Source of the DNA: Microcella flavibacter
Lineage (GTDB): Bacteria > Actinomycetota > Actinomycetes > Actinomycetales > Microbacteriaceae
DNA: 64,000 nucleotides
NCBI RefSeq assembly: GCF_012530535.1
Contig: NZ_CP051299.1
Coordinates: 1,798,001-1,862,000 of the forward strand
Direction of reading: 5' to 3'
This document shows, piece after piece, positions 3,906 through 60,136 of this stretch. Position 1 is the first letter of the stretch. Each line of letters opens with the position of its first letter. A program made the position numbers and the translations under genes. A model generated the notes under the pieces. It was not told where the DNA came from. It saw only the letters and a list, made by a program, of their open reading frames with translations, and did no database searches.

Positions 3906-4577
3906 GTGAACGAATTCCTCGACGGACTGCTCGGCTGGGTGCAGGACGTCGACCCGGTGCTGCGCACCGTCATCGCCGGGCTGTTCATCATGCTCGAGAC
4001 GAGCGTGCTCATCGGCCTCGTCGTGCCGGGCGACAGCGTCGCGCTCGTCGCCTCGACCGCGGTCTCCTCCCCCGTGGAGTACTTCGCCCTCGCGCTGACC
4101 TGCATCGCCGGCGCCCTCCTCGGCGGCTCGATCGGCTTCTGGATCGGGCGCACCTTCGGCCCCTGGCTGCGGCGCTCGCGCGCCGGCCGGCTCATCGGCG
4201 AGAAGAACTGGCAGCGGGCGGAGAACTTCCTCGACCGCCGCGGCGGCATCGCCGTGTTCATCTCGCGGTTCCTGCCGGTGCTGCACTCGATCACGCCGCT
4301 CACCGTCGGCATGAGCACGCTGCGCTACCGCACCTTCATCGCCTGGCTCGCGCCGGCGAGCACGCTGTGGGCCTTCGCCTACGTCTCGGTCGGCTCGGCC
4401 GCCGCGGGCACCTACCGCGAGCTCAGCGATCAGCTCAGCTACGCGGCGTACATCTTCGTCGGCATCATCGTGGCCTTCCTCGTGCTCGTCTGGATCGGCA
4501 AGAAGGCCCTCGAGCGCTACGCCGCGCGGCACGGGGAGCACCCCGGCGACGGCGACGCCCGCACCGTCGAGGACTGA
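3906..4577 (+). CDS. DedA family membrane protein
   Basis: DedA/SNARE-associated family integral membrane protein; members are linked to lipid carrier flipping and membrane homeostasis. The 223-residue product contains the family's glycine-rich entry segment VVPGDSVALVASTAV, the GSIGFWIGRTFG segment and the conserved amphipathic motif FISRFLPVLHSITPLTVGM followed by further membrane helices. The reading frame is open upstream to 3831, but GTG at 3906 fits the family N-terminus and lies 7 bases after a TAGGCT -10 box. It is divergent from cydA and convergent with the osmoprotectant operon, sharing a bidirectional terminator. The substrate cannot be told from sequence. Confidence 0.9.
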   Translation: MNEFLDGLLGWVQDVDPVLRTVIAGLFIMLETSVLIGLVVPGDSVALVASTAVSSPVEYFALALTCIAGALLGGSIGFWIGRTFGPWLRRSRAGRLIGEKNWQRAENFLDRRGGIAVFISRFLPVLHSITPLTVGMSTLRYRTFIAWLAPASTLWAFAYVSVGSAAAGTYRELSDQLSYAAYIFVGIIVAFLVLVWIGKKALERYAARHGEHPGDGDARTVED

Positions 4578-16613: not shown

Positions 16614-16676
16614 CTCCTTCCACTCTGCAGGAACTCGGCGAGCACCCCTCGGGAAAGTCCTGCAGAGTGGAAGGAG
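16614..16676. repeat. Dispersed palindromic element, copy 1
   Basis: A perfect 19-bp inverted repeat (left arm CTCCTTCCACTCTGCAGGA) encloses a 25-base loop. The second copy at 59385-59451 has the same arms with one mismatch and a loop of exactly the same length, which also begins ACTCG and ends AAG. It fits a REP/MITE-like or structured-RNA element. Confidence 0.9.
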
Positions 16677-16755
16677 CGTCAGCGGCAATATCGACCGCGA
16701 CGGAGATGGCGCAGGCGAGCGGGCAGGCAGGCGTCCGAGCGGCCGGGCAGGCAGG

Positions 16756-59167: not shown

Positions 59168-59384
59168 AGCCGCACTCCTTCGTGGGGGTGTCCGCCCTCG
59201 CGCGCGGGATGTGCGGCGACGGCGATGTCGCTCGCGAGTCTAGGCGATCTCCGTTCGGGGGCGAACGATCGGGATGCGCGGCGCGGGCCGCGCGGTCGGC
59301 CGCGGTCGCGCGCGCGGCGGGTTCCGCGGCCGTGGGGCGATGCGCGGCGGACGGCGCGCCTGCGGGGTGGCGGAACGATGCTCG
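59168..59384. other. Intergenic stretch without a gene
   Basis: Holds the leader of the decarboxylase gene; TAGACT near 59240 (reverse strand) is a possible -10. The rest is GC-rich with no feature I can support. Confidence 0.5.
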
Positions 59385-59451
59385 CGCTCCTTCCACTCTG
59401 CAGGAACTCGCCGAGGATCGATCACTGAAGTCCTGCACAGTGGAAGGAGCG
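59385..59451. repeat. Dispersed palindromic element, copy 2
   Basis: 21-bp inverted repeat with one mismatch (59385-59405 with 59431-59451) around a 25-base loop. Arms and loop length match the copy at 16614-16676. It ends 10 bases before the tRNA-derived tandem array. Confidence 0.9.
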
Positions 59452-59461
59452 CAGGTGCGGA

Positions 59462-59771
59462 TGGTGCCCCCGACCGGAATCGAACCTGTGACCAAGAGAT
59501 GAGAAGCACCACGAGAACCGTTCTGGTGCCCCCGACAGGAATCGAACCTGTGACCAAGAGATGAGAAGCACCACGAGAACCGTTCTGGTGCCCCCGACAG
59601 GAATCGAACCTGTGACCAAGAGATGAGAAGCACCACGAGAACCGTTCTGGTGCCCCCGACAGGAATCGAACCTGTGACCAAGAGATGAGAAGCACCACGA
59701 GAACCGTTCTGGTGCCCCCGACAGGAATCGAACCTGTGACCAAGAGATGAGAAGCACCACGAGAACCGTTC
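59462..59771 (-). repeat. Five tandem 62-bp copies of the tRNA-Arg 3' part
   Basis: Copies begin at 59462, 59524, 59586, 59648 and 59710, and the intact tRNA follows at 59772, all exactly 62 bases apart. Read on the reverse strand, each unit is 45 bases of tRNA-Arg from the anticodon loop (position 32) through the variable loop, T arm, 3' acceptor strand and CCA, followed by a 17-base linker. All carry C instead of A at position 37. The most distal copy has one further change in the T stem (59475). The copies lack the 5' half and cannot be tRNAs. Confidence 0.95.
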
Positions 59772-59847
59772 TGGTGCCCCCGACAGGAATCGAACCTGTG
59801 ACCAAGAGATTAGAAGGCTCCTGCTCTATCCGCTGAGCTACGGGGGC
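59772..59847 (-). tRNA. tRNA-Arg (anticodon TCT)
   Basis: Complete 76 bases with CCA encoded. Acceptor stem GCCCCCG/CGGGGGC, D arm GCTC/GAGC, anticodon loop CTTCTAA, T arm ACAGG-TTCGATT-CCTGT. The anticodon stem has a C31/U39 mismatch and a G27-U43 wobble. It decodes AGA, a rare codon in this GC-rich genome. It is followed at once by five tandem copies of its own 3' part. Confidence 0.95.
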
Positions 59848-59872
59848 GAGGCGCCTCCAGGCTACCGGAGCC

Positions 59873-60136
59873 CTACCCTTTCGCCTCGGCGAGCGCCGTC
59901 AGCAGCCGGGGCAGGGTCGGCACGCCCTCCGCGGTGACGAGGATCGAGTCGTCGGCCCGGCGCACGACGATCGTCGGCGTCGAGGTGACGCCGTGGGCGA
60001 GGGCGCGCTCCTGGTGGGCGGCGACGTCGAGCTCCTCGACGACGAGCTCGGGCACGAGGCGCTGTGCCTCGGCCACCACCTCGCGCGCTCGGTGGCACGG
60101 GTCGCAGAAGGCCGAGGTGAAGAGTTCGATGCGCAC
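59873..60136 (-). CDS. Thioredoxin-fold/glutaredoxin-like protein
   Basis: 87 residues of thioredoxin fold: IELFTSAFCDPCHRAREVV with a CDPC redox motif, the cis-Pro loop TSTPTIVV, and a short C-terminal helix. A small cytosolic disulfide oxidoreductase; partner unknown. GTG at 60136 lies exactly 6 bases after a TAGCCT box. Confidence 0.88.
   Translation of the reverse strand: MRIELFTSAFCDPCHRAREVVAEAQRLVPELVVEELDVAAHQERALAHGVTSTPTIVVRRADDSILVTAEGVPTLPRLLTALAEAKG

Follow-up and report, generated by a model that had tools for sequence, protein, structure and literature searches.

The tRNA-Arg(UCU) gene and the array behind it

The window, a stretch of 64,000 nucleotides from the genome of Microcella flavibacter, carries an intact tRNA-Arg gene with the anticodon UCU. 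On the minus strand, this gene is followed by five tandem units, each composed of a 17-nt linker and a 45-nt tRNA part (Table 1). The 62-bp unit can be written as GAACGGTTCTCGTGGTG plus a copy of tRNA positions 32–76. The five-unit array behind tRNA-Arg(UCU) is confirmed as real. TRF reports it as a period-62 array at 59462–59816, with 5.7 copies, 99% matches and a score of 696; the next-best row in the window scores 146.

Table 1. Positions of the features of the tRNA-Arg(UCU) locus, numbered from the first letter of the window
Feature	Position	Strand	Basis
Intact tRNA-Arg, anticodon UCU	59772–59847	minus	ARAGORN (tct); RF00005, 66.4 bits
Unit 1, nearest the tRNA	59710–59771 (linker 59755–59771, tRNA part 59710–59754)	minus	strand reading, TRF
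Unit 2	59648–59709 (linker 59693–59709, tRNA part 59648–59692)	minus	strand reading, TRF
Unit 3	59586–59647 (linker 59631–59647, tRNA part 59586–59630)	minus	strand reading, TRF
Unit 4	59524–59585 (linker 59569–59585, tRNA part 59524–59568)	minus	strand reading, TRF
Unit 5, distal	59462–59523 (linker 59507–59523, tRNA part 59462–59506)	minus	strand reading, TRF
Block CGTGGTG-CTTCTC, unit 1	59749–59761	minus	column counts, identity comparison
Block, other units	59687–59699, 59625–59637, 59563–59575, 59501–59513	minus	
Inverted repeat behind the array	59384–59452 (arms 59384–59405, 59431–59452)		two 22-nt arms, 95% complementary, 25 nt apart

An earlier note on this DNA had described near-identical copies containing precisely tRNA positions 32–76. 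The near-identity is evident from the TRF figures, and the five 62-bp units and their 17-nt linkers are as described, but the word 'precisely' has to be given up: position 37 is C in all five units and A in the tRNA (CTTCTCATCTC in the units versus CTTCTAATCTC in the tRNA), so exact identity of the tRNA part is limited to positions 38–76. In the unit-to-host comparison, unit 1 has no mismatches to its own tRNA across positions 38–74. Unit 5 has an additional substitution in the T-stem (CCTGT to CCGGT), and no linker follows it.

The genome consists of one contig of 2.62 Mb. Of the 49 matches of an RF00005 search of this genome, 45 are tRNA genes above the cut-off and three are array units that fall short of it; the last is a 20-nt match elsewhere, and the search revealed no second array. 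The units reported have 20.3 bits, the cut-off being 29 bits, and are thus not scored as tRNA.

The inverted repeat behind the array is a possible transcript end, and beyond it lies a gene for a pyridoxal-dependent decarboxylase on the same strand. A hairpin of −27.2 kcal/mol begins 19 nt behind the array. The eight proteins around the array all belong to ordinary families and include no recombinase, in line with the earlier statement that no integrase or island accompanies the copies. The inverted repeat is also a member of a dispersed palindromic family (CTCCTTCCACTCTGCAGGA...) with at least four other places in the same genome, including window positions ~16627–16678 (L003) and L004, L005 and L006. 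A piece similar to this family is also found behind the array of another Microcella genome, G018.

Related arrays in Microbacteriaceae and their variation

The earlier note had proposed a look for similar units beside tRNA-Arg(UCU) in other Microbacteriaceae and a comparison of copy number across relatives. Related arrays of one to seven units stand behind tRNA-Arg(UCU) in 37 genomes of eight genera of the family. The first relatives emerged when the tRNA and array of the window were used as queries, which gave tandem halves in other Microcella genomes among the matches listed. In Microcella, the locus was read in 24 of 26 genomes, and arrays are present in six: five units in G000, two in G018, one each in G019 and G014, at least two across a contig break in G001 and one behind an inserted element in G006. 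G021 has only the trailing linker and G013 a partial linker. A 24-base pattern, used alone, was found in 3 of the 26 genomes.

Across the family, a strict pattern was found in 12 of 398 genomes and a relaxed pattern in 23, belonging to 8 of 85 genera; since 375 of the 398 genomes have no relaxed-pattern match, the array is dispensable. An order-level pattern search matched one of 396 genomes, the window's own, and none of the 362 outside the family. By genus, the pattern searches gave 5 of 5 genomes of g93, 11 of 16 of Frigoribacterium and 10 of 28 of a Leifsonia-like genus, where one of the two places in G240 probably matches by chance. Scanning genome_contigs yielded 11 stretches, including Leifsonia aquatica, Frigoribacterium faeni, Salinibacterium sedimenticola, Compostimonas suwonensis and a Mycetocola MAG; there was also one chance match, in Natrinema, that lacks a tRNA half. 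The arrays read all lie behind tRNA-Arg(UCU), with the attR of an element intervening in G006 and G331; in G205, N masks part of the tRNA, and in G343 one contig starts within the array. Assemblies are split inside the array in G001 (L009, L063) and G343 (L080, L083). In the open-licence PMC literature, covered by queries several of which were narrow, no description of such arrays in Microbacteriaceae was found.

Seventy-four units were parsed from the 37 genomes. One unit is present in 17 arrays, two in 14, three in four, five in two and seven in one, in a tally that counts G343 as two contigs and uses a parser requiring the C37 context. The tRNA parts mirror the variants of the host tRNA (TCACAGG/CCTGT, GGCCGCAGG, GATCCC and GAATCC). 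In multi-unit arrays, 15 of 20 distal units diverge from the host tRNA versus 11 of 35 others (Fisher p = 0.0024), G343 being counted twice as two contigs, G205 left out and the distal number of G212 inflated; the parsing of divergence misreads G014, whose single unit stands outside this test. Five Frigoribacterium genomes share a unit with a longer insert in place of the T-loop, and in G787 and G789 this insert is confined to the distal unit, the near units resembling tRNA. In the Frigoribacterium units with such an insert (L094, L095, L141, L143, L145; for example, CGGTGTTGATGACGCTGG), the outer T-stem, the acceptor strand and the block described below are retained.

In G291, two linkers alternate and form a higher-order repeat, a pattern typical of unequal crossing-over, and nested partial duplications are present in G357, G331 and G789. 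A Mantel test links linker distances to flank distances in the Leifsonia-like genus (n = 10, r = 0.51, p = 0.002) and in Frigoribacterium (n = 11, r = 0.34, p = 0.0005). The link is weak in g93 (n = 4, r = 0.49, p = 0.04), and the five Microcella genomes compared do not show it (r = −0.67). Judged from the linkers, the array type is old enough to track descent in two genera. The very recent amplification invoked in the earlier note fits the copies of the window but not the array type as a whole. It is fairly well supported that the arrays are mostly inherited vertically, grow by unequal crossing-over and are refreshed from the tRNA side.

A conserved 13-nt block and predicted folds

Every unit of the window contains a 13-nt block (Table 1), the general form of which is CGYGGTG-CTTCTC. 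The columns CG[CT]GGTGCTTCTCATC are 90–100% constant, save for the C/T column, across 40 distinct units (30 sources), in which the 5′ part of the linker is variable. Over 32 genomes, the mean ungapped identity of the block between genera is 0.89, and it is also 0.89 within genera, a conservation overstated to some degree, since the block is part of the patterns used outside Microcella and the parser depends on the C37 context. The between-genera identity of the 13 nt preceding the block is 0.38 in the same 32 genomes, and that of other 13-mers is 0.30 for two taken behind the array and 0.29 and 0.32 for two upstream of the tRNA.

The six Microcella arrays were found via similarity to the tRNA and array, and all have C37 and the block or a close variant, CGTGGGC in G014 and G006. 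A block-blind check for extra halves at 68 tRNA-Arg(UCU)-like loci, a set that includes other tRNA-Arg alleles and short loci and in which two further loci were not recognised, gave five positives, all of them known Microcella arrays. In the relaxed family search and the Leifsonia-like search, mismatches to the search pattern cluster at 0–1, the permitted limit being 3. The Frigoribacterium units with an altered T-loop still carry the block. At two mismatches, the window's own genome has six non-array places for the block, versus four for a reversed control. The earlier remark that selection may be needed is judged right.

Seven genomes (G414, G438, G388, G787, G789, G340 and G441) have hairpins of −33 kcal/mol or lower that begin 17–31 nt behind the array, in a survey where 10 of 34 array genomes yielded no parsed unit and the tRNA of G205 was not located. 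Strong hairpins also occur behind the tRNA in some array-less genomes, and in several genomes hairpins formed by the units themselves sit within the array. The predicted hairpins behind arrays suggest that tRNA and array may belong to one transcript.

Of the 16 hosts folded, 15 are predicted to form a tRNA-like fold in which the block pairs with the acceptor 3′ strand; the fold is interrupted in G014 and absent in G392. Compared with random 7-mers, p ranges from 0.005 to 0.2 in the 15 hosts. In G006, G014, G001, G018 and G805, the genome's own block variants fit the fold better than the consensus does, and 23 deviant units set against the consensus comprise 10 better, 3 equal and 10 worse (p = 0.11 for 14 distinct blocks); the variants show neither clear maintenance nor clear loss of the fold. 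The mascRNA model gives 14.2 bits on the units, which is not significant at its cut-off of 42.5.

Two other candidates were rejected. A hairpin within the linker, which single folds had suggested, gave no clear signal against shuffles of the variable part, either over 55 linkers (median p 0.40, Fisher p 0.054) or with one value for each of 37 sources (Fisher p 0.16); the two Salinibacterium linkers and the two of G331 fell below 0.04. A minigene on the opposite strand, where C37 gives GAG-ATG-AGA, fails because periods of 62, 64, 71, 82 and 91 break the frame, G001 has an extra base and G438 has a stop after five codons.

Attachment sites, known systems and possible origins

As the earlier note had supposed, the boundary near the anticodon loop coincides with the start of attachment cores. 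In Rhodococcus phage Mbo4, the annotated attP agrees with the unit from tRNA position 39 onward. Elements integrated at tRNA-Arg(UCU) were read in G006 (~35 kb, with a gene for a tyrosine integrase, PF00589, beside attR), in G022 (~38 kb) and, on the attR side only, in G331. Their attR sites have TAATCTC and A37, with left arms unrelated to the block. In both G006 and G331, the array stands behind the element's attR, so the point of entry was the tRNA gene and not a unit. The left arm of the unit (CGYGGTG with C37) was found at none of the three element ends read, and scans of viral_contigs gave no match of the block. No place covering 80% of the consensus unit was found in 22 plasmid records or in the best 30 of 107 phage records with partial matches. 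The exact attR-type pattern is present in one of the 398 family genomes, compared with 23 for arrays. The suggestion that the array consists of stacked attachment sites is not supported by these sequence comparisons; one old attachment event is possible as the origin of the first unit.

In anatomy, the closest analogue is the tyrTV/rttR locus of E. coli. Behind tyrV in strain K-12 there are three repeats, spaced 178 bp apart and overlapping rttR, each of which contains the exact last 19 nt of tRNA-Tyr. RtT is described in PMC4986893 as an RNA liberated from the tRNA transcript, and PMC2658671 lists the RtT locus with a 175-bp VNTR in Salmonella. Both systems have tandem repeats directly behind a tRNA gene, each bearing an exact copy of the tRNA 3′ end. 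The Microcella units, however, hold 45 nt of tRNA in a 62-bp period, involve another tRNA and another phylum and have a fixed C37 and a conserved block. In the region 59200–60000, RtT is absent among 17 Rfam matches up to an E of 10; the array resembles RtT in anatomy but, as judged by the Rfam model, is not a member of that family.

Two further systems are partly comparable. The island PYG1 is flanked by a 44-bp tRNA repeat with a 1-bp difference (PMC9897764). The attL/attR pairs of this type share with the array a tRNA 3′ copy of about 45 nt, the 1-bp difference and a boundary near the anticodon loop. The array differs in being tandem, with no element between the copies, in having a left arm conserved across genera and in being inherited with the host in two genera. 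3′ETS-leuZ is a tRNA trailer that acts as an sRNA sponge (PMC7154689), and the likeness is that the trailer of a tRNA transcript could serve as an RNA decoy. The putative trailer behind tRNA-Arg(UCU) would consist of repeats of the tRNA itself, whereas 3′ETS-leuZ is not known to be a repeat.

The explanation that we tentatively favour, at a probability slightly below even, is that the arrays are a tRNA-anchored satellite composed of tandem, degenerate 3′ parts of tRNA-Arg(UCU), each headed by the conserved block, and shaped in four steps. A single old event would have created the first unit, through either partial duplication of the tRNA or a decayed attachment site, with C37 marking the end of homology to the tRNA. 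The number of copies would then shift by unequal crossing-over between the 45-nt halves, and exchange with the neighbouring tRNA gene would keep the near units matched as the far end decays. Array and tRNA would presumably be transcribed together up to the following hairpin. The weakest step is that purifying selection may keep the 13-nt block. The likeliest ground for this would be some function of the trailer RNA, which might serve as a decoy or sponge or help in the 3′ processing of the tRNA.

It is somewhat unlikely that the units are instead scars of a site-specific integrative element, each unit being attR-like and joining the element's left arm (block and C37) to the host tRNA half. One element family would have visited many lineages and been lost, the scars duplicating afterwards. 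Such an origin would account for the boundary near the anticodon loop and for the host-type half, which integration leaves at the far site; the PYG1 repeat (PMC9897764) is comparable, real elements do use tRNA-Arg(UCU) and the block is as alike between genera as within them. Yet the spacer from the tRNA end to the next half is only about 9 to 60 nt in the arrays read (17 nt in the window), with no decayed island, the block is missing from the element ends, viral_contigs, plasmids and phages searched, and the linkers track descent in two genera. An unlikely alternative is a functionless satellite produced by slippage and unequal crossing-over of a chance duplication, the conservation of the block being only apparent and due to the search patterns and common descent. 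Against this speak the block or its close variant in the six Microcella arrays found by tRNA and array similarity, the clustering of pattern mismatches well inside the permitted limit and the far greater variability of the linker beside the block, even though the higher-order repeats and nested partial duplications, the decay of distal units, the lack of the array in most genomes and the ascertainment bias of the patterns all favour a neutral origin.

That the units are decoys, which bind tRNA-Arg integrases without recombining and so shield the tRNA locus, is highly improbable. The right part of the target would be kept, with C37 in or near the region of exchange; indeed, C37 is found in every unit of the six Microcella arrays and A37 in the attR sites of the elements read, and the G006 and G331 elements entered the tRNA gene. 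However, these two elements reside in genomes with arrays, which thus did not keep them out, and the rarity of the attR-type pattern makes the pressure seem low. As for an assembly artefact, exact repeats are prone to mis-assembly and the G001 assembly is broken within its array, but the window's genome is a single contig, its distal unit has a substitution of its own and related but different arrays are present in many other assemblies; for the first and last of these reasons, an artefact is very unlikely, with a chance close to negligible. Possible, though doubtful, is a broader proposal in which the satellite would be a family-wide, selected trailer element. It would use the tRNA gene as the template for renewing its units while keeping the 13-nt block and C37 to itself, and it would work either as a trailer RNA with several sites and small tRNA-like domains or as a set of decoys that titrate tRNA-Arg integrases and do not recombine.

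The arrays offer a view, across many species, of partial tRNA copies multiplying, being refreshed and decaying behind a tRNA gene, and they draw attention to a short conserved sequence that goes unreported in tRNA annotation. Should the block have a function, it would represent an undescribed regulatory or defensive element in the tRNA trailers of these high-GC Gram-positive bacteria; if it has no function, the arrays would be a clean natural case of concerted evolution in bacteria.

Near attR, the elements of G006 (L057, ~4270–4360) and G022 (L059, ~4015–4110) have a second tRNA-Arg(UCU) allele, with the anticodon stem ..TCCGGTGG. The same second allele occupies the locus in G002, G023, G024 and G008 (L196–L199), and three of these four genomes share the flank found behind the array of G019, as if the host gene had been replaced.
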